In this document: one piece after another, positions 1-26,123 of the stretch
How positions within the stretch are numbered: position 1 is the stretch's first letter
Layout: every line of letters begins with the position of its first letter
IMG/VR virus record: IMGVR_UViG_3300046820_001081
Span: 1-26,123 of that record
Length of the DNA stretch: 26,123 nt
Reading direction: 5' to 3' (one strand)
From: a virus
Translations under genes and position numbers: made by a program
Notes under the pieces: model-generated
What the model was told of the DNA's origin: nothing
The model's input: only the letters and a program-made list of their open reading frames with translations
The model's database searches: none

Positions 1-1458
1 GTAGTCTGCATCTGGCAGATATTTTTCTGCTAGGTCAGCATAACGAGCTGCTGTTGCAGTTCCGTCAAATAATACTGCTAACAAATTACCACTTGAATCT
101 CTAGCTGCAATAGTATTAGCTGTGGCTGTAGTTTTTGCTGATCTGTATGATGGATTAGAATCTGTAGCAGCATTGTCGATCTTTATTCTATCTGCTTTGT
201 CAGTTGTACCAACAAATTGTGTAGCATAAAGATTACCACTGGCATCTCTAATTGGAACTGATGTCTTGTCTACTGCGCCAGGAATAGCTACTTGTGGAGC
301 GATTCCGTTTAGTTTGGTTGCATCGTCTGCAATACCAGTTAAGTTACCTTCTACTGAACCAAACAAGTTACCTTTGATAGTTGCTCCAACATAACCAATT
401 TCTTTAGTAGATGCATTGACTAGTACCTGTGTATCACTAGCTAACAAATTGCCTGTATGTGTACCAGTTGTATTACCTGTTACGTTGCCTACAAGATTAG
501 CGTTAACTGTACCAGCATAGACGTTGTTCCACTTAGATAAAGTAGTACCAAGGTCAAATGTTAAATTAGCACCAGGCACTACACCCGATGATCTAATAAT
601 TAAAGGTTTAAACTGAGACGATTCAGATACTGTGATCTTAAATGTTAAGTCGTTTCCGAGTCTGTTTTCAAAGACAATACCGTCGACTGCTTCTTTACGT
701 ACTCTTAGATCGTTGTTGTCACCTAGCTGGAAGCCTGGATCTTTAAATCTAATTTCGTTGTCAAATATAATGCTGCCTTTTTGTACAAAGTTACTAGCTT
801 CAATGCCGCCTAATCTGGCAGCGTTAGATGCTGTTCCCCAAAAATAATGATCGTCTGATGTAACTCCGGTGGTACCTGTTTTAACTAATGTAACACCTTT
901 CTTGATCTGTGAAAAATCTTCAATTGGGTTTGTAGTGCTGTTAAGAGTAAATGCATCTTGGCTGACAATAGCAATAGTTTTACCGCCTGACACCATTTTA
1001 ACAATAGTGTGATTATTGTTTAATGTATCTTTAACAACCTGTGCTGTAACTGCACTGGCTCCTAGGTCTGGACTTGCTGCTGGGCCAATCAATACATAGT
1101 CAGTTCCGGTCCAAGTATACAATTGTTTTGCGGAGGTATCGAACCAAAAATCGCCTGTAGTTAACCCAGACGGTGCTGAACTACCAGTCTCTGCTCCGCC
1201 TGCAACACGGAATCTAGACCCGTCATAAAATTTTAATTTCTTATTACCGCTGTCATACCAGATTTGGCCTGTAATAACTTTGGGTGGTGCCGATGTGTTG
1301 GCAAAGTTTTCCAACAAATGCAGATAATTTTCATTCTGCACTTCACCGTAACCGGCATAATTTTTACCAACAAATCTAAGATCTGTAGTAGTGTCTATGG
1401 TACCGTCTTCTACGGCTACTAGGAAAGTACCATTAAATTTGTTTACTTGATAGGCCAT
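1..1458 (-). CDS. Tail-fibre-like protein 4, C-terminus cut by window edge
   Basis: An open frame of 486 codons starting at ATG 1458 and running off the left edge. The start is supported by GGAG about 9 bases upstream. Residues 1-190 match the N-terminal domain of the three fibre genes upstream: the start MAYQVNKFNGT, then GKNYAGYGEVQNENYLHLLE, then two 'G-x-[IFL]-W-[YF]-D ... L ... G' units near residues 65 and 105, and QDAFT near 170. After that come fibre-shaft modules: an FDLGTTLSKWNNVYAGTV segment, glycine/asparagine-rich NLVGNVTGNTTGTHTGNL, and repeated 'RDASGNLYA'-type units. The last visible residues read RYADLAEKYLPDADY, which I recognise from the distal part of structural proteins in marine T4-like phages. 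It probably attaches to the baseplate by its N-terminus and projects a shaft. The tip and any chaperone lie outside the window. Family assignment is by motif recognition. The specific receptor is unknown. Confidence 0.8.
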   Translation of the reverse strand, partial: MAYQVNKFNGTFLVAVEDGTIDTTTDLRFVGKNYAGYGEVQNENYLHLLENFANTSAPPKVITGQIWYDSGNKKLKFYDGSRFRVAGGAETGSSAPSGLTTGDFWFDTSAKQLYTWTGTDYVLIGPAASPDLGASAVTAQVVKDTLNNNHTIVKMVSGGKTIAIVSQDAFTLNSTTNPIEDFSQIKKGVTLVKTGTTGVTSDDHYFWGTASNAARLGGIEASNFVQKGSIIFDNEIRFKDPGFQLGDNNDLRVRKEAVDGIVFENRLGNDLTFKITVSESSQFKPLIIRSSGVVPGANLTFDLGTTLSKWNNVYAGTVNANLVGNVTGNTTGTHTGNLLASDTQVLVNASTKEIGYVGATIKGNLFGSVEGNLTGIADDATKLNGIAPQVAIPGAVDKTSVPIRDASGNLYATQFVGTTDKADRIKIDNAATDSNPSYRSAKTTATANTIAARDSSGNLLAVLFDGTATAARYADLAEKYLPDADY

Positions 1459-1481
1459 TTATATAACTCCGCAATATTTTA

Positions 1482-1489
1482 TATTTACA
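1482..1489 (-). promoter_or_regulatory. Possible late-promoter-like octamer upstream of fibre gene 4
   Basis: On the minus strand this reads TGTAAATA, one mismatch from the T4 late consensus TATAAATA. It overlaps the stop codon of the 118-aa gene and lies about 24 bases before the ATG at 1458. T4-like late promoters need little beyond such an octamer. In AT-rich DNA a 7-of-8 match can easily occur by chance, so this is a weak call. Confidence 0.25.
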
Positions 1490-1841
1490 CGATTCTAGAA
1501 GCTGCCGCTTCACGCTGTTGTTCTAATTCTAGGTACTGAGCTTCTGATAGTGTAGTTTGGATGCTCAGTGCTTTTTGTCTGATATGTCTTAATACTTGCC
1601 AATCTGTGCTGTTTAAGAATTCTTTGTTTTCAGCATTGGTTAGTTCTCTAGATTTTTGTGCTGCTAGGTCGCCGGCGACTGGTTCTACTCGTTGAGTTCT
1701 AACATTGAAATAATGGGTTTGAGCCTGTAACTGTGCAGCTTTAGCATCGTCAATCTCAATAACAAGAATTGATGACGGAACTGACGGTCTGTAATTTAAT
1801 ACACTAACAACATTATTATTTTCTACGCATACGTAATACAT
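1485..1841 (-). CDS. Small tail-fibre assembly / chaperone-like protein
   Basis: A 118-aa cytosolic-looking protein with no signal peptide or membrane segment. The C-terminal half contains the pattern NKEFLNSTDWQVLRHIRQKA followed by LSEAQYLELEQQREAAASRIV. This 'L-x-x-T-D-W-x-V-x-R-H ... L-[ST]-x-x-E/Q-Y-x-x-L-x-x-x-R' layout is what I recognise in the C-terminal parts of small phage tail-fibre assembly proteins (Caudo_TAP type) and related XkdW-like proteins. It begins 3 bases after the stop of the 753-aa fibre gene, with GGAG 8 bases before its ATG. A chaperone gene directly downstream of its fibre is a common arrangement in tailed phages (T4 37-38 is the classic pair). Inference: it helps trimerise or cap the 753-aa fibre, or is a minor component of the tip. 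It could instead be a structural protein. The N-terminal 50 residues are not recognised. Confidence 0.6.
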   Translation of the reverse strand: MYYVCVENNNVVSVLNYRPSVPSSILVIEIDDAKAAQLQAQTHYFNVRTQRVEPVAGDLAAQKSRELTNAENKEFLNSTDWQVLRHIRQKALSIQTTLSEAQYLELEQQREAAASRIV

Positions 1842-1844
1842 CTG

Positions 1845-4106
1845 TTAACTCCAAATAGCTAGATAGTTTGCTGCTGGTGTAGATCTTTGTTCTGTATTTT
1901 GTACATAAACACGTATTCTGTCACCTAAATTACTCCAAGTACATCTCAAAGAGTCGTTTCCGTCTACACCGCCTGCATAATGTATTACCGCAATGCTAGG
2001 AATAAATGCAAGTAGTTGGTTCATTGATTTGCCGTAAGGGGGGAATACATCAAAATAGTTAGCACCGTTATTCCAACTACCTACTTGATTAGTGTAGCCT
2101 GACTGGCTGTAAATTGTATTGCCGTAGGTAAATGTAAACTGCTGTGCAAATGTATCAACATACTGCTTAGTTGCAGCGTGTAATCCGCTAACTGGGTTGC
2201 CAACTAATGTTAAGTAACCGCTCATTGAATCGCCGGTCTTAGCGACTCTGGTTGGATCAGTAGCTTGTACCGTGATGTTTGCAGAACCGTCAAAACTTAC
2301 ACCGTTGATTGTTCTAGGTGTTTGTAATCTAGTAGCAGTTGAAGCATTACCTGTTACCTGTCCTACTAAATTAGCTGATATTGTGCCAGCGTAAAAATCA
2401 CCGCTGGCATCTCTAGCTACAACTTTGTTTGCAGTGTTAGCCGATGTTGCATCAACTGACCAAGTTCTATCAACTGATGTATCATAGTCTGATCCGCTGA
2501 CATAAGATCCAGGACGAAGTTTTTCAAAGGCCAAACTACTCCAAACTAATCCGCTGGATGTAGCTCTTAGATATTGTCCGTTGTTTCCTAACGGAAGCAT
2601 TGTGGTTGTATTAGATGCTGTTTGATAAGGAATTGCTCCGGCGGCGCCACCGACTATGTTTGTTGCCCTAGTAGCCAAGGTAGCTGTATCAGCGTTGCCT
2701 TTTAGTTCATTAGCCCAGACTGTTTTCCATCTATACGTTTGATGACCCAAGTTTGTATCATTGCCGAATCCCGGAATCAATGCCGGTTTGTTTTCGCCGC
2801 TTTCGGCTAGACTAATTGTACTAGAAATTAAAGTTACGTTGGCAAAGCCTGATGGTCTTGTAGTATCAGCAACATCTATAGCTAATCCAGTGTTTGCAGA
2901 TTCGCTTCTAACTGTTGGCATTCCAGTAGCTGTTAATTTTAATTTTGAACCAATTAAAATTCCTTCTGCTTCTACGGTTAGATCTGCCAATGTTCCTACG
3001 TGTTCTAGATAAGAATTTGTAACATTAGGAGCCAGTACCGTTCCAGTTAATGTATTTGCTGCGGCAGGAACAGTAACATTGGAAGTTCCGTCAAATGTTA
3101 CACCGTTAATTAATCTTGCAGTTTCTAATTTAGTTGCTGAAAACGCATTACCAGTTAGCGTTGCGCCAACAAATCTATTGGCTGATACAACATCAAAACT
3201 ACTTGTACCAGTAGTAGATGTAACATTTCCTTGTACGTTACCGACTAAGTTTGCTGTGATAGTGCCTGCGGCAAAATCTCCGCTGCTGTTTCTAATTACT
3301 ACTTTGCCAATTAAATTACTGGAAGATGCATCAACAGCCCAAGTTGTTGGCGATGAGCCATCAAAGTCGTTACCTGTTAGGCCTTCGCCTCGAACAAGAT
3401 AATTTGTAGTACTTGATCTAATAGTAACATCAGCAGTACCGTCAAACCCCACACCGTTGATCAATCTTGCATTTTCAAAACGGTTAGCACTTTCAGCACG
3501 ACCTTGTAGATTGCCTTTAATATCGATCAACGACAATAAATTAATACCAGCAATTAAAGTTCCAAACCCTGCCGGAGCTGTTGCCGGAGCTAGTGTAAAT
3601 GCTCGACTAGCAATAATCCCAAGAATTGTTCCGTTAACTTCGATTAAAATTACAGGATTGTTATTTCCGTCAGAATCAATTAATGTTGTAGATCGAGCCC
3701 TAGTTGTTCCAAATCCTTCAGCAGTTTCTGGGCCAATGAACTTCCACTCAACGCCATCCCAAAGATACATTGTTCTGTAAGGCATTTTGTACCATAGTGC
3801 TCCAGCCGGAGGAGCTTCTGGTGCTGTTTCAGATACTACAGCCGAGCCAACAATTACCCACTTGGAATCATCCCAAACGTGCAACAAACTATTTGTAGTG
3901 TTAAACCACAGTTGTCCTTCTATTGGTCTTGCGGGCGGATTAGAGTTGGCAAAGTTTTCTAATAAATGTACAAAGTTTTCATTTTGTACCTCGCCATATC
4001 CTGTGTAATTTCTGCCAACAAGACCTATACTGGTAGACGTATCAATAGTTCCATCTTCTAGAACTATTAACTGTACACCACTGTATTTGTTAATTGTATA
4101 AGCCAT
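1845..4106 (-). CDS. Tail-fibre-like protein 3 with Phage_fiber_2 repeats and compact tip
   Basis: 753 aa, starting at ATG 4106 with a strong AGGAG 8 bases upstream. Residues 1-190 are the N-terminal domain common to this fibre cluster (MAYTINKYSG; NYTGYGEVQNENFVHLLENF; GQLWFNT; GALWYKM; ASRAFT). The shaft holds three 'ARLINGVxFDGTxxVT' units at about residues 208-230, 326-347 and 592-614, the signature of Phage_fiber_2 repeats. It also holds two 'VVxRxxSGDFxAGTIxANLVG' units near 268-290 and 561-583. At 621-650 there is the common fibre motif KTGDSMSGYLTL ... HAATKQYVD. The last ~85 residues form a distinct tip: FPPYGKSMNQLLAFIPSIAV, then GNDSLRCTWSNLGDRIRVYV and NTEQRSTPAANYLAIWS. I recognise this tip type from other phage fibres. 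Followed at once by the 118-aa chaperone-like gene, this looks like the fibre whose folding needs a partner. Role: probable receptor-binding or side fibre; the receptor is unknown. Confidence 0.82.
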   Translation of the reverse strand: MAYTINKYSGVQLIVLEDGTIDTSTSIGLVGRNYTGYGEVQNENFVHLLENFANSNPPARPIEGQLWFNTTNSLLHVWDDSKWVIVGSAVVSETAPEAPPAGALWYKMPYRTMYLWDGVEWKFIGPETAEGFGTTRARSTTLIDSDGNNNPVILIEVNGTILGIIASRAFTLAPATAPAGFGTLIAGINLLSLIDIKGNLQGRAESANRFENARLINGVGFDGTADVTIRSSTTNYLVRGEGLTGNDFDGSSPTTWAVDASSSNLIGKVVIRNSSGDFAAGTITANLVGNVQGNVTSTTGTSSFDVVSANRFVGATLTGNAFSATKLETARLINGVTFDGTSNVTVPAAANTLTGTVLAPNVTNSYLEHVGTLADLTVEAEGILIGSKLKLTATGMPTVRSESANTGLAIDVADTTRPSGFANVTLISSTISLAESGENKPALIPGFGNDTNLGHQTYRWKTVWANELKGNADTATLATRATNIVGGAAGAIPYQTASNTTTMLPLGNNGQYLRATSSGLVWSSLAFEKLRPGSYVSGSDYDTSVDRTWSVDATSANTANKVVARDASGDFYAGTISANLVGQVTGNASTATRLQTPRTINGVSFDGSANITVQATDPTRVAKTGDSMSGYLTLVGNPVSGLHAATKQYVDTFAQQFTFTYGNTIYSQSGYTNQVGSWNNGANYFDVFPPYGKSMNQLLAFIPSIAVIHYAGGVDGNDSLRCTWSNLGDRIRVYVQNTEQRSTPAANYLAIWS

Positions 4107-4127
4107 TTAAACCGCTCCTGAATTTCA

Positions 4128-5939
4128 TTATGGTGGAAGCACAGTGTCTGAAACGTGGTTCCAGGCACCGGCAATAATTTGGAATACTTTAATAATCCTT
4201 GTTGTACTTACACTAGGTGCAGGTACTGTAGCAACGTTAATACCAACGTTGGTTACGGCAGGTGCTGTACCAGTTGGAGTATTAAATGTTGAAGTACTTT
4301 GATTAATCAATGGGTTTACATCAAGGTTTACTGTTGAGTTGCTTAACAAGGTGCAAAGAATACGTGCAATTGTGCCATCACGGTAATCAGCTACCGGTGC
4401 AATATTATTAAGAATATTTGAAACAATATAACTGTTTGGCTTACCGTCTGACAAGTCCATACTTAATACTATTGATCTAGTTTCTATAGTATTGTCAACA
4501 TATTCTTTTGTTGCCGCATCTTGGGCAGATGTAGGATCTGCCATACCTACAATCTTTGGACTTCCTATTAACGAAATATTTCCAGTACCTTGAGGTTCAA
4601 TTTCAAGATCTTGGTTAGTTAATAGAGTGCTAATTCGATTGTTTTGTAATCTTAGATATGCAGGATCACCAACTAAGCCAGGCCCCACGTTAATAACTGT
4701 TTGTTTACCAAACGATGTAACACCTGGAATGCTAGTAATGCCAACACCTAATGAGTTTTCTGTTAAAACTTCTATACCGTTGATTCTATAACTCTTGCTA
4801 CTAGCAAGATTCATATGTTCAGAACTGTTCCAAGCAGCACTAGCGGTTGTCCAGATCAAAGTTTTATCTGAATCAACTCCCGCCTTTAGTGTTATACCAC
4901 CGTTGTTAGCATCTGCATTTGTTTCTGCACCCGATGCTAACTCAATATTTTTATCTTCAACTGTAACTGTTGTTGTGTTAACTGTTGTAGTTGTACCTTC
5001 AACTGTTAAATCTCCAGAAATTACCAACGAGCCGCCAACAGTTACAACACTGTTAGAGTATCCAGAATAAAATTTAACTTCCCTAGTGTCGGCAAGTACT
5101 GTAATAGCATCTTCTTGGTTAATACCTTTTCTAACGTTAAGAATTAAATTCTTGTCAGATGCAGCGTTTGATAGATACACGTTACCTGTGTTAACTGTTA
5201 AGTTGGCCTGTCCTGCAGAACCAATAACAATTCCTAAATCTGTGGTAATTCTTAATTGTCCGGAGATAGCATTGGAAGTATCTTTACGAACATATGTTGT
5301 TGCTTCTGTACCGCCTAGGTTATCTGCGTTGGTACAGGTAACATTAAATTTAATTCCGGTTAGGTTACCAGCATTGAATCCTGGTGCAATGCTGCCAGTA
5401 AATCCGTCAATGGCATTCTTAGGAGTAAATGAGTCTTTAGCAAATATTCCTAATAAAATTCCGTTGTTGTATAGATAGGTAATAACTCTAGTTTGGTTTA
5501 GTGTGTCAAGAATACTTGCTACTCTTAGACCACTAACGCCTTGGCTAGCCGAGTAAGCTGGCGCTAATAAAATTGTAGTTGTACCGTCAAAGAAATACAG
5601 TTGACGATCAACATCGTTAAACCAAAGATCGCCAACACCTAATGTACTTGGTTGCGAGTTTGAAATTGTTGCAGAACTAACTGGTTGGAAAGCAGTTCCG
5701 CTATAAACTTTTAATTTTAATTCGCTAGTATCAAACCAAATCTGTCCTCTAATAGGATGGGTTGGTCTAGATGTACTGGCAAAATTTTCTAATAATTTTA
5801 TAAAATTTTCATTTAACGCTTCGCCAAACCCGCTGTAGTTTTTACCTATTAGGGTTAGATCCGTGCTAAGTTGATCAACCTGGCCGTCAGCCACTGTTGC
5901 TACTATAGTTCCGTCTGTTTTGTTTATTTGATAGGCCAT
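4128..5939 (-). CDS. Tail-fibre-like protein 2
   Basis: 603 aa, from ATG 5939, 13 bases after the previous stop, with only a weak purine stretch (GAG) as a ribosome site. Residues 1-190 carry the cluster's common N-terminal domain (MAYQINKTDGT; GKNYSGFGEALNENFIKLLE; GQIWFDT near 65; VGDLWFND near 102; AKDSFTPKNAIDGF at 167-180). Around 308-400 is a module I recognise from many marine phage structural proteins: SGDLTVEGTTTTVNTTTVTV, then EDKNIELASG, NNGGITLKAG, and NSSEHMNLAS with SYRINGIEVL. At 457-485 there is the fibre motif 'GSPKIVGMADPTSAQDAATK' followed by EYVDN. The last ~110 residues (from about 490) form a unique tip that I do not recognise. Virion protein, probably trimeric and fibrous, docked through the shared domain. 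It is distinct from fibre 1 (no collar) and fibre 3 (no Phage_fiber_2 repeats). Confidence 0.8.
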   Translation of the reverse strand: MAYQINKTDGTIVATVADGQVDQLSTDLTLIGKNYSGFGEALNENFIKLLENFASTSRPTHPIRGQIWFDTSELKLKVYSGTAFQPVSSATISNSQPSTLGVGDLWFNDVDRQLYFFDGTTTILLAPAYSASQGVSGLRVASILDTLNQTRVITYLYNNGILLGIFAKDSFTPKNAIDGFTGSIAPGFNAGNLTGIKFNVTCTNADNLGGTEATTYVRKDTSNAISGQLRITTDLGIVIGSAGQANLTVNTGNVYLSNAASDKNLILNVRKGINQEDAITVLADTREVKFYSGYSNSVVTVGGSLVISGDLTVEGTTTTVNTTTVTVEDKNIELASGAETNADANNGGITLKAGVDSDKTLIWTTASAAWNSSEHMNLASSKSYRINGIEVLTENSLGVGITSIPGVTSFGKQTVINVGPGLVGDPAYLRLQNNRISTLLTNQDLEIEPQGTGNISLIGSPKIVGMADPTSAQDAATKEYVDNTIETRSIVLSMDLSDGKPNSYIVSNILNNIAPVADYRDGTIARILCTLLSNSTVNLDVNPLINQSTSTFNTPTGTAPAVTNVGINVATVPAPSVSTTRIIKVFQIIAGAWNHVSDTVLPP

Positions 5940-5952
5940 TTCAGTTACTCAA

Positions 5953-8079
5953 TTAAGTTGATGTGGTAAATGCTGGAGGACCTGAACGGATAATATAGTT
6001 CAATGTCAAGAACGGGTTCATAATACCAACTGCTGTTCCCAACGCAAATGTTGGGTCTGGTTTTTTGATACCTCCAGAATCTTGTAAGTATTGCATCTGT
6101 CCAGGTGCTGTCGGACCAAAGCCTGTTGATGCAGGAGGATTAATAGCTGTGTCATATTTGACAACAGAATATTGAACTCCATTGTAATTTAAAGAATGGC
6201 TGTGCTCTGGTAAATTACCTAGTGTCAATGTTACAGAACTTTGACCAGCATCACCGCCTAAAATTTGAGCTTTAGTGTCTGGAACTCGGCTAGCTGTGCC
6301 TCCGCCTCCATCTACATATCCGCCAAACGAGTTTGGAACAGTAACACCATTATCCATATTATCACGACCTAGAGCAAATCTTCCTCTAAGATCCGGAAGT
6401 CTAAATGTGTTTACACCTAATAAAGCTGTTGTTCCGTTATATGTTGTACCGATTATATCGTACAATTCTGGATACTTTGTTTTTTCAACCTCTGAACCGT
6501 CACATAAAAGATAACCATAAGGTGCAGATTGACCAGCGTAGGGAATGATACCGCCTAGTGGTATTCCAAGGTCTCCAACAAATGTATCTCTTGTTTGTTT
6601 TAAAAGACCAGACGATGAACCTGCTGATTCACTAGCTCTGTAAGTTAGAATAAAATCAGTGGACTTAGATACGTTGGGAGCTGGTAGAGGTTTTCCGTTA
6701 ATAATATTAGCAGTCAGCGTTGTGTTAAAAATTTTAGTATAGCTACCGACCTGCCCGTCAAACTGGATTGCTGGACTAACCACGTCGCCCGCTAATTGAA
6801 ATGTTGTAACTGTTTTTAAGTTAGTAGCAGTATTAGCGTTACCGTTAATGTTACCAGTCAATACACCTTGAATTTCGTCAGCAATAACAGTCTTGGCTCT
6901 AACGGTGTTCCATCGTTTTAACGAAGTACCGTTGTCATAGGTGTCAGTGGTTTTAGGTTGCAATGTAGTAACCTGTGTTGTACCAGAAACATCTAATGTT
7001 GTTCCCACTAGTAAATTTTTTGCAATGGCAGCGCCGCCTGCAATTCTAAGACTACCGTTGTTTAAGTTTGTGCTTTCTGATTCGTTAGAAACAATCAACG
7101 ATCCAGTTAGGCCAATGTTACCATCTACATCTAGTGCTTGGTCAGGACTGGCCTTGTTAATACCAACTTTGTTATCTAAAATTCTTAAAATAGTACTAGG
7201 AGTACCGTTTCTGTTAACTTGAAGATCTAAAGAACTACCAGATGCAGAGTTATAAATCTTAGCTGCGGTAGGAGAAGACGAGATGTTAAAGGTACCATCA
7301 ACACCTAAAGTAAGACCAGTGTTGCTTCGTATGTTGAAACCATAATCAGTGGTATTAACTGTATCCGATCTTAAGAATTTACCCGAGGCTACTTCTGCAC
7401 CATTGATGATCAAAGCATCAGCACTAGTAGCTGTTCCGTATAACTTAGGCAAATAGCCGCCAACAAAATCTTCTACTTCAGCAGAAGTTGCTGGAATGTT
7501 AATGTTGATGCCGGACTTAACTGTAACAAATCCTGCAATTTCAACCTTTGGAGTAAAACTATCCTTAGAGAAAATAATTACAGGAACGTCTGCAATATAA
7601 AAAATTAAAATAGAACGGTCAACGTTGTCAGAGTCGGGTACTCTTTCAATAGCTGGACCGTATCGTAGTCCGTCTACAGAACTTTCGTTTGGTCCAACTA
7701 AAATCCAACGTGTGCCTGTATAGATTCTCAACTGTTGATTAGTAGTGTCAACCCAAAGTTCACCAACTTTAGATGTCTCAACTGATGGTTCAGTTGCAGA
7801 CTTTTGAATATTTGATGCAGCCTTCCAACTAGTATTATCCCACAACTGAAGAACGCCGTTGGTACTGTCATACCAAAGTTGACCTTCTACTGGGTTAATT
7901 GGAGCTGCTCCGCTTGAAAAGTTTTCTAGAATATGTAGAAAGTTTTCAGCAATGATTTGCCCATAGCCTGTAACGTTACGACCTGGAAAAATTAAACTGG
8001 TATCTGTACTTGAAGTATTGTCAAATACCGTAATAGGACTTTTATTGTCTTTGTCTGTAAAATTTACGATATATGGCAT
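5953..8079 (-). CDS. Tail-fibre-like protein 1 with phage tail collar domain (short-tail-fibre-like)
   Basis: 708 aa. The ATG at 8079 follows a double TAA stop of the upstream gene, and GAGGT lies 8 bases upstream. Residues 1-192 are the shared N-terminal domain, the most divergent copy (MPYIVNFTDKDN; GRNVTGYGQIIAENFLHILE; GQLWYDS; VGELWVDTT; SKDSFTPKVEIAGF). The middle carries shaft elements including SLRIAGGAAIAKNLLVGTTL and LKRWNTVRAKTVIADEIQGV. From about residue 508 to 626 is a phage tail collar domain: GGIIPYAGQSAPYGYLLCDG, YPELYDIIGTTYN, NTFRLPDLRGRFALGRDNM, then LPEHSHS. In T4 gp12 an HxH motif in the distal part coordinates a metal ion on the trimer axis; the HSH here may do the same, which is inference. 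It may be the functional counterpart of the short tail fibre, although its N-terminus belongs to the local family and not to gp12. Confidence 0.85.
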   Translation of the reverse strand: MPYIVNFTDKDNKSPITVFDNTSSTDTSLIFPGRNVTGYGQIIAENFLHILENFSSGAAPINPVEGQLWYDSTNGVLQLWDNTSWKAASNIQKSATEPSVETSKVGELWVDTTNQQLRIYTGTRWILVGPNESSVDGLRYGPAIERVPDSDNVDRSILIFYIADVPVIIFSKDSFTPKVEIAGFVTVKSGININIPATSAEVEDFVGGYLPKLYGTATSADALIINGAEVASGKFLRSDTVNTTDYGFNIRSNTGLTLGVDGTFNISSSPTAAKIYNSASGSSLDLQVNRNGTPSTILRILDNKVGINKASPDQALDVDGNIGLTGSLIVSNESESTNLNNGSLRIAGGAAIAKNLLVGTTLDVSGTTQVTTLQPKTTDTYDNGTSLKRWNTVRAKTVIADEIQGVLTGNINGNANTATNLKTVTTFQLAGDVVSPAIQFDGQVGSYTKIFNTTLTANIINGKPLPAPNVSKSTDFILTYRASESAGSSSGLLKQTRDTFVGDLGIPLGGIIPYAGQSAPYGYLLCDGSEVEKTKYPELYDIIGTTYNGTTALLGVNTFRLPDLRGRFALGRDNMDNGVTVPNSFGGYVDGGGGTASRVPDTKAQILGGDAGQSSVTLTLGNLPEHSHSLNYNGVQYSVVKYDTAINPPASTGFGPTAPGQMQYLQDSGGIKKPDPTFALGTAVGIMNPFLTLNYIIRSGPPAFTTST

Positions 8080-8082
8080 TTA

Positions 8083-8724
8083 TTAGACCTCAGTGAATCC
8101 AGTTAAGCTCTGGCAGCGAATTGTATAATCAATTTGAATCAATCTGTTTAGTGATTTCTGCACAGGGTGGAAAATAACGTGGGTGAGTAGTTTGCCAGAT
8201 CCGTTAGGATCGTAGCTCTTTAGACCTAGTTCGTCGAAGACAAAGTTACCGCTTAGGTCAACGCTATTATCAAACGCTTCTTGATCTAAAGGCTCACCAT
8301 AGTCTAACAAACAACTAATTAAAATATCACTGTAGGTTGCACCGCTGATGTGGCGAACTTCCATTTTATTACGAACAGGGTCTGTGTTTTCTACAGCGTT
8401 TGCATCCACTACTTTGTTATATGTTTGATTATAAAGACTAGAATTTACACCAATAGTATTTGGTGTAAGATAAGTGATAAGCCCTGTAGGGTCTACACTG
8501 GTTCCGCCAGTACCAAAAACCATTTCATAGATAAATCCTTGGCCTTGGTTACTTAAACTTTGAACCATAGCCACTGACATATTTTCGTAATGAATTGCGT
8601 TACGTTGGTCTCTATAAACTTCCCCAGAAATAGGGTCAAATATTTTAATATGCCCTTCAAAATGAAAGCCGCCCTGTTCATTAGGCTGCTTTGCGGGCTG
8701 TTGTGAGTTGATTGTTTCTGGCAT
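8083..8724 (-). CDS. Small virion structural protein of unknown function
   Basis: 213 aa from ATG 8724 (MPETINSQQPAKQP). The frame stays open upstream to a GTG at 8772 (16 extra residues) with ATGs at 8748 and 8745 in between. I prefer 8724 because it avoids overlap with the upstream gene and has AGAG 6 bases before it; the GTG at 8772 has a stronger AGGGAG but only 3 bases of spacing. The first ~20 residues are polar and probably disordered, followed by GGFHFEGHIKIFDPISGEVY, a beta-rich segment around MVFGTGGTSVDPTGLITYL, and a C-terminus rich in beta strands (FHPVQKSLNRLIQIDYTIRC). There is no signal peptide or membrane segment. I do not recognise a named family. Its place between the giant baseplate-type gene and the fibre genes suggests a baseplate rim or fibre-attachment component, which is inference from position only. 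Confidence 0.7.
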   Translation of the reverse strand: MPETINSQQPAKQPNEQGGFHFEGHIKIFDPISGEVYRDQRNAIHYENMSVAMVQSLSNQGQGFIYEMVFGTGGTSVDPTGLITYLTPNTIGVNSSLYNQTYNKVVDANAVENTDPVRNKMEVRHISGATYSDILISCLLDYGEPLDQEAFDNSVDLSGNFVFDELGLKSYDPNGSGKLLTHVIFHPVQKSLNRLIQIDYTIRCQSLTGFTEV

Positions 8725-8752
8725 TTTAGTCTCTTTTAATTCCATCATAGTA

Positions 8753-8760
8753 TATTTATT
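8753..8760 (-). promoter_or_regulatory. Possible T4-type late promoter octamer
   Basis: On the minus strand this reads AATAAATA, fitting the T4 late consensus TATAAATA at 7 of 8 positions and the NATAAATA form reported for cyanophages. It overlaps the TAA stop of the giant gene's second frame and lies about 29 bases before the preferred ATG at 8724. It would give the small virion protein and fibre genes their own late transcript, and would favour start 8724 over GTG 8772. Composition alone makes such matches fairly frequent, so confidence is modest. Confidence 0.35.
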
Positions 8761-11700
8761 CGGGCAAATCACTAGCTCCCTGAGCTATGAAATTAGCGAT
8801 TGTAGTGTTATTTTCCAATAAAGTAATGCCTTTGCTTGCATTACTTGTGCCTCGCTCGTACCATATCTGACCGGTTTTTCTAATTACAGAAATTCTTGTT
8901 CCAGCAGCAACGGCCTGTGTTAATCTTATGTAATAATCGGCACCGTTAACTGCAAACTCAGCTTCAATTTGCTTGTCTGCATACGGGCTGCTGGCTCCTA
9001 GTGTTTCGTCATAGACTGTAATTGAATCTTTACGCAGTCTGCGGCCGGCAACAAAGACCTCTACTTGATCGCAAGGACCGTAGTTTGCAGGAATATTTCC
9101 TTGGTACCAGCTGCTTCTAGTTGATTTGGTAGGAACGTAGTTCAACGGCCCAATTAATACTGTGCTTCCGTCGCTGATAAAATCTACACGATCTTGATTT
9201 TCATTGTAAGGTATAGTGTGTTGATAGCCAACATCAACTACCGGAGTTCCAACAGCATAGCTTGAGCCGATAGGTGTTCCAAAACTACCTCTGCGTAGCT
9301 GAGATAATATGTTACCCACCTTGCTCATATATTCTATTTTTTCTCCGTTAATGTGTACTACGCCTGGAATATTTCTAGAAGAAATTGGTTCTGTTAAAGG
9401 CGTAGCATCATTTACTTCGATTGAAGTATCGTAGTAATTTAACTGCTTAGTTAAGGTCACCGAATTAATAGAATATCTGTGATATTGATATCCGTTTAAC
9501 ATATCTTTGTAAATTTCAAAGGCAGCTGGCGCCTTGTATGTTTGATCACCAAACAATACAATTTTAATTAAATCAGTATCAATAGTTGATTCTGTTAGGT
9601 AAACAGCATTTCTTGGCAGGTCAACATAGTAATCTTGATCTGCGGTTAATCTAGTACCATTCTTATACACCCAAATAAAATCAATACTTATAGGAGTATA
9701 ATCTAATCGATAGTTGACTTTGCCGCCGGCATATTCATCTGATACCATTTGTAAAGAAGGATACTCAGAGAACCAAGTAATTTCTATTTGATCTTCATCT
9801 ACTAGAGTGTAACTATCAGAAATTACAATGTTGTTTCCTTCGATATAATATTCAGTACGGAAGTCATTTTCTATAAGAATAAAATCACCGTTGGTTAATC
9901 TAGATGTTAGAATTACCAGCTCTTTTAGAGTACCGTCGTAAGTATAATCTTCAATGAAGGTTAATAATTGTTCATTTACAAACACTCTAATATTTGTAGG
10001 TAAAATTGTTCCAGATGGTTCATATGGATCAGTACCTAATATAAACGAATTGTTAGTACCATCGTAAACTGCATTGATACTGTCAACTCCTCGAAGAGCA
10101 GTACCGTTAACTTCAACAATAATCGAAGACAGTGCAGAAGCACGTTCTAAGTTTACAAAATTATCAAGGTCAAAACTTCTTGTGCTACCTTCATAGGTAA
10201 CAGTTTGCTTGTTTACTCGAACTACCGATAATCCTGTAGAATCAATATCAGAGTTTGCACCTAGAGAAATAATTTTAACAATACTTCTGTTTGGTGGCTT
10301 AATTCCAAACTGTACTACTGTTTTTTCAGTAATTTCAAAATCATCAGAACTGTTAATAAATCCTACGTCAGTTTGTTCACCGTTTACCGTGACAAATACT
10401 GAGCTAGTATCTGAGTAGTTTGCATTTGTTAAAAATAAACTAGTGTTGCCATCTGCTTCATATTCTTTGTAATCTAACAATGCAAGACCGCCAATACTAA
10501 TAGCAATTATTTCTATAATTGAATTAGCAGCAGGTGGTGTTGTGAATTCTACTTCATTTGTAGTAAAGTCAATAGCGTAATCAGTTTGTTTAATTTTGTC
10601 AACATAGACCAACACTGATTTTTGTTCAAGAATATTAATACCAATATCAAAGAATCTAGTTACACCGTCTGATACTAACACTGACGATTTAATAGCACTA
10701 GTGCCTGTCTTAGTAGTCTGGAACACTTTAATAGACACGCTGTCTAATACCTGACCTGGAATATTTTCTTCTGGTGCGGGCACTTGATCGGGACCAATAA
10801 ACTTGCCTCCTTCGATAACAATTTCTTCAGGTGTTAACCCTGTAGCAGTAGCGTATGCTCCGCTCATTGCACTTAGAGAACCACCACTAATTTTTGTATC
10901 TAATAGATTAGGATCGTTAATAGTTACCGATCCATCACTTTCTATTGGTCTAAAAATTAATGTGTCGCCCGCAAACGTTGAAATGTATCTTCCAATTTCA
11001 ATTGTTGCAGTAGATCCGTCGCCAATAAAAGTTGGCATTTGGGCCGCTGGGTTTGTTACTACTGACGAATCCCAAGCGTCAGTGTAGTTAGGATCGTCAA
11101 TGCGAGTAGTTTTTATTTCTCCCTGACGCTTAATATAAACTGTAATAACTTGCCCATCTTCTGGAATATAAGGTAATGTAATTTCTGTAGTGCTTCCGTC
11201 ACAAGAGTGGTAGTAGTCTGCACTAGCTTCTACTGAATCCCAGTTGTCTGTGAACCAGGGTAAGGCATCCCAACCACCAGTAACATCAAAGGTAGTTCCT
11301 TGAATTGAAACACCGCCATAATCAATACCTGTCATTAGCTGTGACAATTCATTGCCGATCATTCCAGCAGTTGGAGCATAATATTTTTCAATCCTGTTGA
11401 TGCTGTCTAACAACTGATCATTCTTTTCATAGGTAACTGTAATTACATCACCGGTTGCTGGAACTTCTACAAATCGAAGTTTTCCTTTTAACAGGCTGTA
11501 AGTGTCAACGGTAGAAGTGTAAAGAATAATTTCATATTCGTTAGTCAACACTACTTGATCGTTTTTCAAGATTTTAATCTTGCTCTTATCGCGAGTTGCT
11601 GCATAATTTAGATCAAAAATAGCAGTATAACCAGTTGCTGTAAATGTTTGAGATTGAGTTAACGAACTGTAGTATCCGTGTTTAGCTACCCTGTCAAATT

Positions 11701-22404: not shown

Positions 22405-25400
22405 TTATGTTGTACTTACAATACTGTTAACACTTGCTCTTACTTCTGCTGCGGTAATTGCTGAAACAATTTCAATGTCGTCCACTGTTGCACCGCTGAC
22501 AAAAATCTCGCTGCTCTTGCTTTGAATTTCAAATAGACTACCAAATTCTTGGCTAGTCTGTCTTGGTAATATTACCATATTGCTAACATCAGGAGCTACA
22601 CTATTAATTACATAGGTTATCATCTCGCTGAGATAAAACTTATCACCAAAGTCCCAATTATTAACATCAAAAAACTCGTTGATAGCTGTAATAATTCTTA
22701 CTTTCAAATCATTGTCGTTGATGCTCTTTGCAGGATTTTTTACAACTTTAAAACGTGCCTGTAGCTTTTCATCTGCTGTAGGCCCAAACAATACTTTGTA
22801 TTCTACAGGATGATAAATGATTTCATCGCTGATAGATTTAATTGTATCTAACTTAGAACCAAAGCTAATACGAAGACTGTCGCTGTCTGGTGCAACTGGC
22901 TCGTCTTCACCGCCCATTAAGAAGTTTCTAAAACTAGTATCGTAACTTCTAGTTAAAATGTAAACGTCAATGATGTTGCTAGAGCTTGGATCAATTCTTC
23001 TATTGATACTTGCATTGTGAATGTATTGGAACTTTAACTTGTCGCGACCGACAACACCTTTATAAGTGTTATCTAACACCAATGTGTTTGTTGCTCTATG
23101 TACACGCTTGACTCTGTTTTCATTTGCATCCCAGAAATAGATTAATTGTCCATCGACGTAATCGCTGACATTAATTTCAGATTCTTTTTGGCGGACTAAT
23201 ATCGTGTCGTTGCTGTTATCAATTAATGTTCTGGTTAGATAACCTGTGTTGTCTAAAACTTCCTGGAAGAAGATAAAGCTCAATTGATTGTCTTCGCCAA
23301 CTATTTCTTCAAACGCATCTGGGTCGTCAATAACTCCGTCATCGTCGGAGTCTCTAAAAGATAATTTAATTTCTGCGGTACTTTCGTATCCATCGTCAAA
23401 TTTAATAGTATCATCTATTTCAAAATCAATATCAGATTTTAAAACATTTATTCTGTCATTGCCTGTGTTAATTCCTAAGACATTGATAGTGTCTTTGACT
23501 ACGCGACCTAATTGATTATTGTACTGTTTTTCGTTAGCATCAAAATAAAATCTATTTTGTTCTACGCTACCAAAAATATAGTTCATAGAACGAATTCTAA
23601 TGTTATAGTAATCTGCTTCTTTTACAAAGGCCATAAGCCAAGAACTGTCTAGGTTAGCATTAGTAGTATCGCCAGCTTTACCTAAACTAAAATCGCTTAA
23701 CAGATCAAGGTTTGTTGAAGTTATAATCTTCCAGGTTTGATCTGAAACATTAAATCTCAAAGCAAAATTTAAATCTTGAGATATTTGGTTTACCATTTCT
23801 GTTTCGACTGCAATTGGAAGATCGTTAATAAACTTTGGAACAATTCTAGATGCAATAGCACCTGTTGGAATAGTGTCGCTAAATGACACTGGACCTAATC
23901 CTGTTGTTAACATTCCGCGGCCGGCATTAGTTCCGTCTCCGACTACTTTAACAACCTTTGTCCATAGATAATTTACTTGATCAGGATCATCTGCAGAAGT
24001 AACAACTGTTTTTCCCTTCTTAAAAGAATATCCAGCAGGTGGCACAAACTTAATTAAAGAACCAGAAGAAACATACTTTAAACTATTAGTAGAATATGTG
24101 CCTACTTTTAACAATGAATTGTCAACGTTATTTTTAAAATATCCGGTGCAGAGATTTACATCTGTAGTGACTTGATTCCATACTACGTTTGTATCTGTAA
24201 ATAAAATTCTATCAAATTTTGTTAGATAAAAGTTATAAACATCGTTGCTGGTAAACGCTGGCTCAACGCTGCGTCTAATAAAGTTAACAGCGTCAATTCT
24301 GCTGGTGTACTTAAACGATAGAATTTTTTCAACTTCTTCTTTGTATACATAACCATCGTTGGCAAATACATTTACAGAGCTGTATCTTCCTGTGGCATCA
24401 ATAACATCAAAATTTCTAGAAATACCTGAGCTTACTCTGTTTACAGATTTAATTTTTAAAATGTTTTGGCTGCTGGTTAGCGGAGCAAGATTATAATCTT
24501 CTCCGGTGATCATTCTATTCTGTGTATAAAAACTTGCAGGCGCATTAGTTCTAATGCTGTCTGTTGATTCAGACGCAGCAGAATTTGCCACAGTATATTG
24601 TAAACCTAGACCAATAGTAATATTATGTTCTTCTCCCCTCTTATTGATGTAAGGGATAGAAATGTTAATGCCTCTTAATTCGTTTGGAGAAATTACATAA
24701 CTTAGTCCGTTGCTAACTCTGTAATAAACACGGAATGATCCTTGAGGCAAGTTTCCATAAACACCGTCAGCAAATACTAAATCAACTCTATCATCTGTTT
24801 TAGTCAACACAGAATAGATGTTTCTTATATCTTGGTTAATACTGTTATAAACAATATTGCTGCCTACTAGGTTAGCAACCTGTGTCCACTGATCAAGTTG
24901 GGCACCGTTAGGTGCAAGTCTATATAACCATAAGTCTTCATTGTTAATTCCGGTAGCATCAACTGCCACTGTTTCATTAGTAGTTGGAGCATCGACAGCA
25001 AAGTCAGCAAGTTCAAGACTACCTTGCTTGAACATCATATAGAATCCAGTATTGGCGCTTCCAGGACCGGCACCGTCATTTCTATAAATGAAACCTACTT
25101 GGTTGCCAGGAACAGGCGGCTCTTCATATGGTGTTTCTGCACCAGTAAATGCGGTGCTGACAATTTCAAAATTCATACCTCTAGCTGCTACAGTTTTTGT
25201 AAAAGCAAAAATTGGCACATCCTGACTAATTGTTCTAAATCTATATTGTTCTGTTTGAATGCCTTCAATGACTGCAGAACCCTGGCTTCGGCCAAACTCA
25301 GTGTTGTCTGCCATTGCAGAGTTGAGCACTAATAGAAACTGTTCTAACCAGTTTGAGTTAGTTGGGTCGTTCCAGCTGATAATTTGATTACCTAAATTTT

Positions 25401-25803
25401 TGCCGTTACTATCTACAATTTCTTCTGTGGTAGTAACTGTAGAAAACTTTAATAGACCTTTTGATGCAACATTTCGCTTGGCATTATAGCTGAGCATTTT
25501 TGCAATTCGTAGGACGCTTTCTTTAGTTTCTGCTAGTTCAATAAAGTTTTCACGGCTGGCTAGATCAATACGGAAGGCTAGACTTTGACCTAGGAATGCA
25601 ACAGCGTCAATAAGGGCCATATACTCAGAACTTTCAATGTAATCATTGAAATCTTCTGGGTAATTTTCACGTAGATACGTAATAATAACTCTACGTAGGT
25701 TTTCAAAATCGTAGGATTTGAAGTCAGCATTTTTAAATGTCTGATAGATTCTAGTCCAATCTTGATTTAAAATAAGGTTATTTTGTCTAGCGGTTGTTGT
25801 CAT
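22405..25803 (-). CDS. 6: Baseplate wedge protein, gp6-like (baseplate J-like)
   Basis: 1132 aa from ATG 25803, with an AGGA-containing ribosome site about 9 bases upstream. In T4, gp6 forms the dimeric ring of the inner baseplate that ties the wedges together and opens during contraction. Recognised features: the N-terminal helical region (NADFKSYDFENLRRVIITYL, SSEYMALIDAVAFLGQSLAF, then FIELAETKESVLRIAKMLSY); the baseplate-J-type core with ITGEDYN near residue 430; and a C-terminal region from about 1040 (NEFFDVNNWDFGDKFYLSEM, APDVSNMVILP, FGSLFEIQSKSSEIFVSGAT, VDDIEIVSAITAAEVRA), all typical of the gp6 family in marine T4-like phages. At about 816-832 there is DSDDDGVIDDPDAFEE, a calcium-loop-like acidic motif. 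It is clearly longer than T4 gp6 (660 aa), with extra sequence in the middle. It sits 41 bases after gp25 and 1 base before the giant gene, the standard 25-6 order. Confidence 0.9.
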   Translation of the reverse strand: MTTTARQNNLILNQDWTRIYQTFKNADFKSYDFENLRRVIITYLRENYPEDFNDYIESSEYMALIDAVAFLGQSLAFRIDLASRENFIELAETKESVLRIAKMLSYNAKRNVASKGLLKFSTVTTTEEIVDSNGKNLGNQIISWNDPTNSNWLEQFLLVLNSAMADNTEFGRSQGSAVIEGIQTEQYRFRTISQDVPIFAFTKTVAARGMNFEIVSTAFTGAETPYEEPPVPGNQVGFIYRNDGAGPGSANTGFYMMFKQGSLELADFAVDAPTTNETVAVDATGINNEDLWLYRLAPNGAQLDQWTQVANLVGSNIVYNSINQDIRNIYSVLTKTDDRVDLVFADGVYGNLPQGSFRVYYRVSNGLSYVISPNELRGINISIPYINKRGEEHNITIGLGLQYTVANSAASESTDSIRTNAPASFYTQNRMITGEDYNLAPLTSSQNILKIKSVNRVSSGISRNFDVIDATGRYSSVNVFANDGYVYKEEVEKILSFKYTSRIDAVNFIRRSVEPAFTSNDVYNFYLTKFDRILFTDTNVVWNQVTTDVNLCTGYFKNNVDNSLLKVGTYSTNSLKYVSSGSLIKFVPPAGYSFKKGKTVVTSADDPDQVNYLWTKVVKVVGDGTNAGRGMLTTGLGPVSFSDTIPTGAIASRIVPKFINDLPIAVETEMVNQISQDLNFALRFNVSDQTWKIITSTNLDLLSDFSLGKAGDTTNANLDSSWLMAFVKEADYYNIRIRSMNYIFGSVEQNRFYFDANEKQYNNQLGRVVKDTINVLGINTGNDRINVLKSDIDFEIDDTIKFDDGYESTAEIKLSFRDSDDDGVIDDPDAFEEIVGEDNQLSFIFFQEVLDNTGYLTRTLIDNSNDTILVRQKESEINVSDYVDGQLIYFWDANENRVKRVHRATNTLVLDNTYKGVVGRDKLKFQYIHNASINRRIDPSSSNIIDVYILTRSYDTSFRNFLMGGEDEPVAPDSDSLRISFGSKLDTIKSISDEIIYHPVEYKVLFGPTADEKLQARFKVVKNPAKSINDNDLKVRIITAINEFFDVNNWDFGDKFYLSEMITYVINSVAPDVSNMVILPRQTSQEFGSLFEIQSKSSEIFVSGATVDDIEIVSAITAAEVRASVNSIVSTT

Positions 25804-25844: not shown

Positions 25845-26123
25845 TCAGTTAATGATAGAATTGTTTTTGTCAAAGTTAAACGTCATACGTTCGTTGATGT
25901 TAAAAGGAATATAGGTGATATCAGCCTGTATTCTTATTCCTTGGTCCGTGCTGTCTATTTGTATTTCGTTTACCTGTATACGTGGGTCGTAATTAATAAT
26001 TGTTTCGACATCTTTAGAAATAATGTTTTTAACTTCTTCTGTAAAAGGTTCAAAAAGAATATCCCAAATTACAGTACCAAACTCTGGGTTTTCTAGCTTT
26101 TCACCTTTACGAATATAGAAGTG
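25845..26123 (-). CDS. 25: Baseplate wedge protein gp25-like, N-terminus cut by window edge
   Basis: The last 92 codons of a gene entering from the right edge, ending at TGA 25847-25845. The visible protein reads FYIRKGEKLENPEFGTVIWD, ILFEPFTEEVKNII, NYDPRIQVNEIQID, then DITYIPFNINERMTFNF. 'NPEFGTxIWDxLFEPxT' and the 'YDPRIxVxxI' segment are hallmarks of the GPW/gp25 family (PF04965). T4 gp25 is 132 aa and sits in the inner baseplate, where it primes sheath polymerisation; related proteins occur in type VI secretion baseplates. About 40 N-terminal residues should lie beyond the window. It is followed by gp6 as in T4. Confidence 0.9.
   Translation of the reverse strand, partial: HFYIRKGEKLENPEFGTVIWDILFEPFTEEVKNIISKDVETIINYDPRIQVNEIQIDSTDQGIRIQADITYIPFNINERMTFNFDKNNSIIN

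Follow-up and report, generated by a model that had tools for sequence, protein, structure and literature searches.

The window analysed here, the complete 26,123-base IMG/VR record IMGVR_UViG_3300046820_001081, carries all of its long genes on the minus strand, in the order gp25-like fragment, gp6-like gene, genes for proteins of 3123, 1255 and 229 amino acids (aa), fibre 1, fibre 2, fibre 3, a 118-aa gene and fibre 4. The four fibre genes form a tandem array and have in common an N-terminal domain of about 185 residues, after which they diverge. With a probability of roughly two in three, we read this locus as the fibre cluster of a T4-like relative of jumbo phages, in which the products of old duplications hang from a shared anchor, slots 1 and 2 are mostly fixed, and slot 3 swaps its tip.

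Best local alignments between the first 230 residues of the fibres, taken in pairs, score 282-424 (33-41% identity, from 71/211 to 94/229) against a maximum of 63 in shuffled controls (200 shuffles per pair), which rules out chance similarity. The four-way alignment contains 32 invariant columns, and fibre 1, used as a query against the whole record, matches exactly four places, namely the four fibre genes. The original prediction, made from the letters of this stretch, of four tandem fibre genes with a common N-terminus is thus borne out. The motifs written down for the domain turned out to be too strict: GYGE..NEN[FY]..LLENF fits fibres 3 and 4 only, [SQ].[AD][SA]FT fits fibres 1 and 4 only, and G.LW occurs twice in fibres 1 and 3, its relaxed form G.[LIF]W being found twice in all four. 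The domain has no Pfam match above the cut-off and no NCBIfam match other than one far below the cut-off, and its profile finds no PDB sequence at E <= 1. The AlphaFold2 model (predicted local distance difference test, pLDDT, 83.7; predicted template modelling score, pTM, 0.48) has as its best fold match a short and weak one, to a collagen trimerisation domain (Z 5.3 over 50 residues); in the fold search with this model, the absence of a family excludes nothing. The position of the genes suggests that the domain anchors the fibres to the baseplate.

The gp25-like and gp6-like wedge genes adjoin the fibre array, as in a T4-like baseplate/fibre module. The product of the gp6-like gene belongs with phrog_10646 by its match, and its identity to the proteins of jumbo phages such as SCTP-2, Phosso, Atu_ph07, PA5oct and GAP32 is 32-36% (among 30 of 62 records listed). 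Because of these matches to jumbo phages, the phage is, as judged by its genes, T4-like and jumbo kin, and the window is a fragment of its genome; the related contig L149 is part of a 280,019-base record.

The array appears to be old. A tree built from 76 N-termini, taken from the window and from 20 related loci, with two outgroups, groups the domains by array position: fibres 1, 2 and 3 each occupy one side of a branch (Shimodaira-Hasegawa-like approximate likelihood ratio test support 98, 97 and 99), with two changes required for fibre 4. Any given copy resembles the gene at the same position in related phages more than it resembles the other genes of its own array, and since the N-termini group by position across the relatives, the duplications predate this clade. 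Positional clades in both N-terminal trees rule out a recent duplication, as the original prediction had held. Nor are the copies closer to unrelated phages than to each other, so that the duplication reading is not refuted; the strongest Atu_ph07 copy (39.6% identity over 125 residues) shows roughly the level of similarity seen among the paralogues themselves. The larger tree adds a sister group of three-gene arrays lacking fibre 3; one of the loci, L133, counts as a three-gene array only because its contig ends.

A profile of the N-terminal domain matches 30 of 39 records (31 uncultured contigs and 8 cultured phages), G021 only weakly; the nine records lacking a match are contigs that may not reach the region. 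Array size, counted without deduplication in loci where a relative of the 229-aa protein lies upstream and 2 kb or more follow the last copy, is four copies in 13 loci, three in 21, two in one and one in two. Five copies are found in L142 and in three of its relatives, where the fifth gene is short or incomplete. Among cultured phages, Phosso, SCTP-2, RaK2 and 121Q carry one copy each, Atu_ph07 one strong and one weak, Vibrio phage 2.275.O two distant ones, PA5oct two adjacent and three elsewhere, and Stenotrophomonas phage RAS14 six adjacent genes (L088:24370-33047). One of the RAS14 genes (30387-31430) is annotated as a D-alanyl-D-alanine carboxypeptidase, yet the shared domain spans its first ~110 residues. 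The 229-aa family lies directly upstream of the array in 106 of the 107 uncultured loci that leave 500 bases or more for it and beside the domain in 7/8 cultured stretches; no upstream relative was found in the RAS14 stretch searched. The N-termini of Atu_ph07 and Phosso fall on the fibre 1/2 side of the tree, on a long branch, and their ends are of the fibre-4 kind. The domain is also present in contigs L223-L232, which have been assigned to genome bins of bacteria or archaea (e.g., Neomarinimicrobiota, Pacearchaeota) and are probably phage contigs in these bins.

The distal parts follow a different rule in each slot. The ends of 326 complete fibre genes, assigned to positions 1-4 from profile scores, were sorted into classes by single linkage of BLAST matches between their last 90 residues, after removal of incomplete genes and of proteins shorter than 300 aa; the entry counts are not deduplicated, and the two underlying locus searches kept 80 of at least 598 and 80 of at least 523 confirmed stretches. 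Removal of near-identical arrays reduced 53 to 42, and 35 arrays with four complete genes were kept for correlations. Fibre 1 has a single tip class in 98/98 complete entries and fibre 2 a single class in 85/98; fibre 4 ends in class T0 in 69/75. Fibre 3 shows 11 tip classes in the 42 distinct arrays (T0 in 17, T3 in 15, T4 in 2 and eight classes once each). The rank correlation of tip identity (last 110 residues) with genome identity across the 35 arrays is 0.77, 0.81, 0.23 and 0.38 (rho) for fibres 1-4, and within one class, that is, leaving out arrays with other tip classes at that position, 0.28 for fibre 3 and 0.08 for fibre 4. Equal shuffling of all four fibres is rejected on the basis of these biased classes and correlations. 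The domain shuffling proposed in the original prediction therefore stands for slot 3 and, in slot 4, for the final ~115 residues; it is not supported for slot 1 and mostly not for slot 2, the tips of both following the genome.

Individual pairs of arrays illustrate the replacement in slot 3. L131 and L161, with fibres 1 that are 90% identical, carry tips T0 and T11, and the identity of their fibres 3 in 30-column windows drops from 63-97% to ~20-30% inside the gene. L145 and L147 (fibre 1, 91%) carry T9 and T3, with a drop from 60-93% to 10-30% and a partial rebound to ~50%. Within T3, the N-terminus and the tip of fibre 3 are 93% and 78% identical between L125 and L126, and 89% and 99% identical between L125 and L149. 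Recent transfer as the cause of the high T3 tip identity between distant phages is ruled out, the silent sites being near-saturated.

The T3 tips come with a distinct neighbour. The 118-aa gene, which the original prediction overlooked, may be related to tail fibre assembly proteins, with a match to phrog_188 (E 2.4e-5). Directly after a T3-tipped fibre 3 it is found in 19/19 entries, after fibre 3 with other tips in 0/36, and directly after a complete fibre 1, 2 or 4 in none of the classed entries; a profile of the family recovers the same 19 copies and none further in the searched loci. Tips of class T3 are likewise found in phages of Cellulophaga, Winogradskyella and Synechococcus (12 records; 43-46% identity over ~60% of the query), in three of which the next gene was compared with the 118-aa family. 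In Synechococcus phage S-8S55, the gene after the tip is annotated as a tail assembly chaperone and is related to this family (hhalign E 5.2e-6, probability 86); in Winogradskyella phage Peternella_1 and Cellulophaga phage phi38:2, the gene after the tip has no detectable relation to it. The 118-aa product probably helps the T3 tip of fibre 3 to fold. Fibre 3 contains three copies of the repeat INGVxFDG; the repeats seen in the original prediction are real, but their assignment to Phage_fiber_2 is not supported by any match to that family at E up to 0.1.

Two genes (~162-174 and 156-160 aa) come after tip T4 in 8/8 entries with 5 distinct tips, which stand at positions scored as fibre 2, 3 or 4; the cassettes occur in three array settings (L142:11509-12505, L176:14873-15847 and L226:3690-4690). 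The first gene is, we tentatively presume from recognised residues, oxygenase-like. Pfam gives this label weak support, for the L145 gene, at 19.9 bits against a cut-off of 31.2, and PHROGs names that family DNA endonuclease. The coupling of T3 with an assembly-like gene and of T4 with two genes is an association.

Fibre 4 reaches base 1 without a stop codon and, because the window is the whole record, is truncated; the ADLAEKYLPDADY end ascribed to it earlier is the last 13 residues before the contig end, that is, the place where the sequence stops. In complete relatives, ~115 further residues follow this point, and the chaperone fold of T0 is known through these copies, the window retaining the first 12 residues of the domain. 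The T0 profile matches the chaperone-bearing tailspike Dpo31 (E 7e-4) and phi29 gp12 (E 0.015), with no single stretch significant alone. An AlphaFold2 model of the relatives' T0 end (pLDDT 84.4) matches phi29 gp12 in both the uncut form (3suc; Z 15.4, root mean square deviation, rmsd, 3.1, 116 residues) and the cut form (3gqh; Z 15.4, rmsd 2.0, 108 residues); the next-best match is a Haloferax virus capsid protein (Z 12.8). The motif DLAE is present in 82/82 distinct T0 domains and in the window. Its Asp, residue 46 of the model, aligns with residue 692 of 3gqh, the start of that chain, and lies near residue 690 of uncut 3suc if the alignment is ungapped. In the available text of the respective reports, mature phi29 gp12* is modelled to residue 691 (PMC6542822), and domain D4 of Dpo31 is traced from Asp664 and absent from the mature protein (PMC13317679). 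By residue count, Asp664 belongs to the ADYAE of Dpo31 itself; the alignment with D4 (28nb) superimposes this motif on ADLAE, and the full-chain Dpo31 alignment is offset by three residues. Since a gp12-like fold and a conserved DLAE at the matching place coincide, T0-ended fibres probably trim themselves before DLAE, as the model and the analogy with gp12 suggest. The same DLAE end is found on Atu_ph07 gp176, a Phosso fibre and PA5oct gp359, and the T0 end is thus old. In locus L179, fibre 4, the fourth array gene, stops soon after YADLAEK, the chaperone end being missing or broken in that record.

In slot 4, exchange is supported for this end. The two halves of the fibre-4 stem track the genome (rho 0.65 and 0.62), whereas after DLAE rho is 0.08 across 32 arrays (Mantel p 0.24), as against 0.81 for fibre 1 and 0.77 for fibre 2 as controls (p 0.003). 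In 40-column windows, rho is 0.33-0.37 in the first windows, 0.49 in the one starting at residue 455, and then 0.08, -0.09 and 0.20, the Asp of DLAE being reference residue 485; nucleotide scans of discordant fibre-4 pairs show level shifts near the same place. T0 has a median identity of 63% versus 42-45% for the stem. In a tree of 61 T0 domains, those of fibres 3 and 4 lie on two sides of a branch with support 99, L195, on a flagged long branch, being the sole exception; this rules out that fibre-3 T0 is a recent copy of the fibre-4 end of its own genome.

Fibres 1 and 2 are the conservative members of the array. The collar domain predicted for fibre 1 is confirmed by PF07484 (E 6.7e-21, 74.4 bits against a gathering score of 24), the only Pfam match above the cut-off among the fibres of the window, and GDLTVEGTTTTVN, noted previously in fibre 2, is indeed present from residue 309. 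The N-terminus of PA5oct gp358 matches fibre 1 (E 4e-13) and its C-terminal end is a Gp10_C domain (E 9.8e-24); by this comparison, fibre 1 seems to resemble a gp10/gp12-like pin or short tail fibre. The neighbouring genes are listed with the fibres in Table 1. The 3123-aa protein beside the wedge genes has matches to FG-GAP_2 and CBM_5_12, and the 1255-aa protein matches PF03906, the N-terminal family of the T7 tail fibre, in two stretches (E 1.1e-6). The best PDB sequence matches of the 229-aa and 118-aa proteins have E-values of only 0.29-0.69.

Table 1. Genes and domains of the 26,123-base window, in the direction of transcription (ORF, open reading frame)
Feature	Coordinates	Strand	Basis
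gp25-like baseplate wedge, 5' end cut off	25845..26123	(-)	PF04965 E 2.8e-7
gp6-like baseplate wedge	22405..25803	(-)	phrog_10646 E 5.1e-282
Giant protein, 3123 aa	13032..22403	(-)	context
Structural protein, 1255 aa	8756..12523	(-)	context
Conserved neighbour, 229 aa, phrog_11259; candidate docking partner	8083..8772	(-)	
Fibre 1, 708 aa	5953..8079	(-)	ORF; N-terminal domain
Fibre 1, shared N-terminal domain	7510..8079	(-)	alignment
Fibre 1, Collar domain, residues 509-568	6376..6555	(-)	PF07484
Fibre 2, 603 aa	4128..5939	(-)	ORF; N-terminal domain
Fibre 2, shared N-terminal domain	5376..5939	(-)	alignment
Fibre 2, GDLTVEGTTTTVN, residues 309-321	4977..5015	(-)	sequence
Fibre 3, 753 aa; slot with variable tip in relatives	1845..4106	(-)	ORF; tip classes
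Fibre 3, shared N-terminal domain	3546..4106	(-)	alignment
Fibre 3, tip of class T3, last 90 residues	1848..2117	(-)	tip classing; shared with other phages
118-aa tail-fibre-assembly-like gene, companion of T3 tips	1485..1841	(-)	phrog_188
Fibre 4, cut by contig end after 486 residues	1..1458	(-)	ORF
Fibre 4, shared N-terminal domain	892..1458	(-)	alignment
Fibre 4, start of chaperone-like T0 end, first 12 residues from DLAE; rest outside record	1..36	(-)	

Several observations weigh against the favoured reading. Fibre 2 carries other tips in 13/98 entries and has windows with rho of 0.12 and 0.25 around residues 321-405. Silent sites, pooled over pairs, do not point to recent exchange in general: at four-fold sites, T3 pairs are 32% identical in the N-terminus and 36% in the tip when distant, and 53% and 51% when close, and fibre 4 does not differ between stem and end (56% and 53% over 23 close pairs, 39% and 38% over 1513 distant pairs), so that the fibre-4 exchanges are not generally recent. 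Locus L146 has the T4-type gene pair, and L145 its first gene only, after another tip, so that tips and helpers do not pair one to one. For the 118-aa gene there is neither a Pfam match (E <= 0.1) nor a tblastn match in the phage collection, and the model of the N-terminal domain finds no confident structural match (no Foldseek match at E <= 0.001). The T0 fold is common to phage head decoration proteins as well (Z up to 12.8), and Foldseek E-values place capsid proteins above gp12; since these proteins share the fold, it is by itself no proof of a cleaved chaperone.

That all four proteins are interchangeable receptor-binding fibres with freely shuffled distal domains is very unlikely. The distal parts of the four do differ, and ends are shared across positions, T0 by fibres 3 and 4 and T4 by entries scored as fibres 2, 3 and 4, but the single tip class of fibre 1 and the dominant one of fibre 2 both track genome history, and the T0 domains of fibres 3 and 4 are separated in the tree, with the one flagged exception. 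A different view, in which the four occupy separate places in the baseplate (pin, socket, short fibre) and owe their common fold to history, only fibre 3 binding the host, is doubtful but draws on several facts: the genes for gp9-gp12 of T4 have a comparable location, fibre 1 contains a Collar domain and its counterpart a Gp10_C domain, and fibres 1 and 2 are conserved. The long stem and chaperone-like end of fibre 4, however, fit a projecting fibre.

For slot 4, T0 might instead be a permanent receptor-binding or decoration domain, and its exchange a change of host range. The end varies independently of the rest of the fibre, like a receptor-binding tip, the same fold occurs in stable head decoration proteins, and T0 has no Pfam match to a chaperone or peptidase. 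This alternative is nonetheless unlikely, considering that the best structural match is the gp12 chaperone in its cut and uncut forms, that the profile matches point to the Dpo31 chaperone and gp12, that DLAE is conserved at the matching place, and that T0 is more conserved than the stem, unlike a fast-changing receptor-binding tip.

Arrays of this kind are not without precedent. Escherichia coli phage CBA120 (TSP1-4) and Klebsiella phage RaK2 (gp526-gp534) have receptor-binding sets with shared N-termini which, as described in the available text of PMC10253068, resemble the array in comprising several receptor-binding proteins per phage with shared N-terminal assembly domains and different distal parts; they differ in consisting of tailspikes or branched fibres that bear enzymatic and gp10-like XD domains, the fibres of the window having Collar as their one Pfam match above the cut-off. 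CBA120 TSP4 gives a short, weak match to the N-terminus of the window fibres (Z 2.6, 37 residues, rmsd 2.2), and the sole RaK2 copy of this N-terminus, ORF065, lies outside gp526-gp534. The cultured jumbo phages Atu_ph07, Phosso, PA5oct and RAS14 possess the same N-terminus, and the first three also have the upstream 229-aa family and the baseplate neighbours seen in the window; they differ from it in copy number. The paper on Atu_ph07, in its available text, reports short tail fibres by microscopy and gives four other genes as tail fibres, gp176 not being named in the main text. In the record of PA5oct, gp357-gp360 carry notes of electrospray ionisation tandem mass spectrometry, and gp358 and gp359 have this N-terminus; for PA5oct, these notes speak against a single fibre type, and this phage alone supplies support for several types on one virion.

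T0 shares its fold and the initial Asp-x-Ala-Glu with the self-cleaved tailspike chaperones of phi29 gp12 and Dpo31 D4, and differs from them in its length of ~115 residues, its identity of 19-21% over the aligned part, its location on baseplate-linked fibres and in that its cleavage is predicted. In Alteromonas phage A5/V22, a tail fibre has a separate chaperone, and the fibre end and chaperone gene are common to distant phages (PMC10579305, available text). The likeness, which is one of description and not of sequence comparison, is that a fibre end travels with a chaperone gene; unlike in A5/V22, the tip and gene of the window fill one slot of a four-fibre array. In the titles and abstract openings listed for open-licence papers, we found no account of this array or of slot-limited exchange. 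The latter is the unusual feature here, receptor-binding sets with shared N-termini and fibre ends shared with chaperones being already known.

Altogether, the favoured reading of old duplication with fixed and swapping slots can be put as follows. The four fibres, presumably trimers, probably attach to the baseplate by a common N-terminal anchor, possibly with the product of the adjacent upstream gene (229 aa) as intermediary. Comparison with relatives shows that the copies stem from old tandem duplication and that each array position forms its own lineage; positions 1 and 2 mostly retain their distal parts, and position 3 has replaced its tip repeatedly. By association, T3 comes with the assembly-like gene and T4 with two other genes. 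T0-ended fibres carry a C-terminal domain like the phi29 gp12 chaperone; fibre 4 probably folds with a built-in chaperone and may trim itself before the conserved DLAE. Position 3 would be the slot through which the phage changes receptor. A more specific version, to which we give somewhat less than even odds, is that of a rack in which slot 3 swaps unrelated tips together with their own folding system (a fused self-cleaving chaperone, an assembly protein encoded separately, or an oxygenase-like gene with a small companion gene) and slot 4 exchanges the disposable chaperone itself, with the break near the self-cleavage site.

The array is real, old, widespread and known in kind, and its division into fixed and exchangeable slots is unusual. 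If the reading is correct, the adsorption machine of these giant phages would tolerate change mainly in one slot, together with a matching folding helper. It would predict the host-range gene in a widespread lineage of uncultured phages, and the arrays would constitute a natural data set on replacement among folding strategies, fused chaperone versus separate protein.

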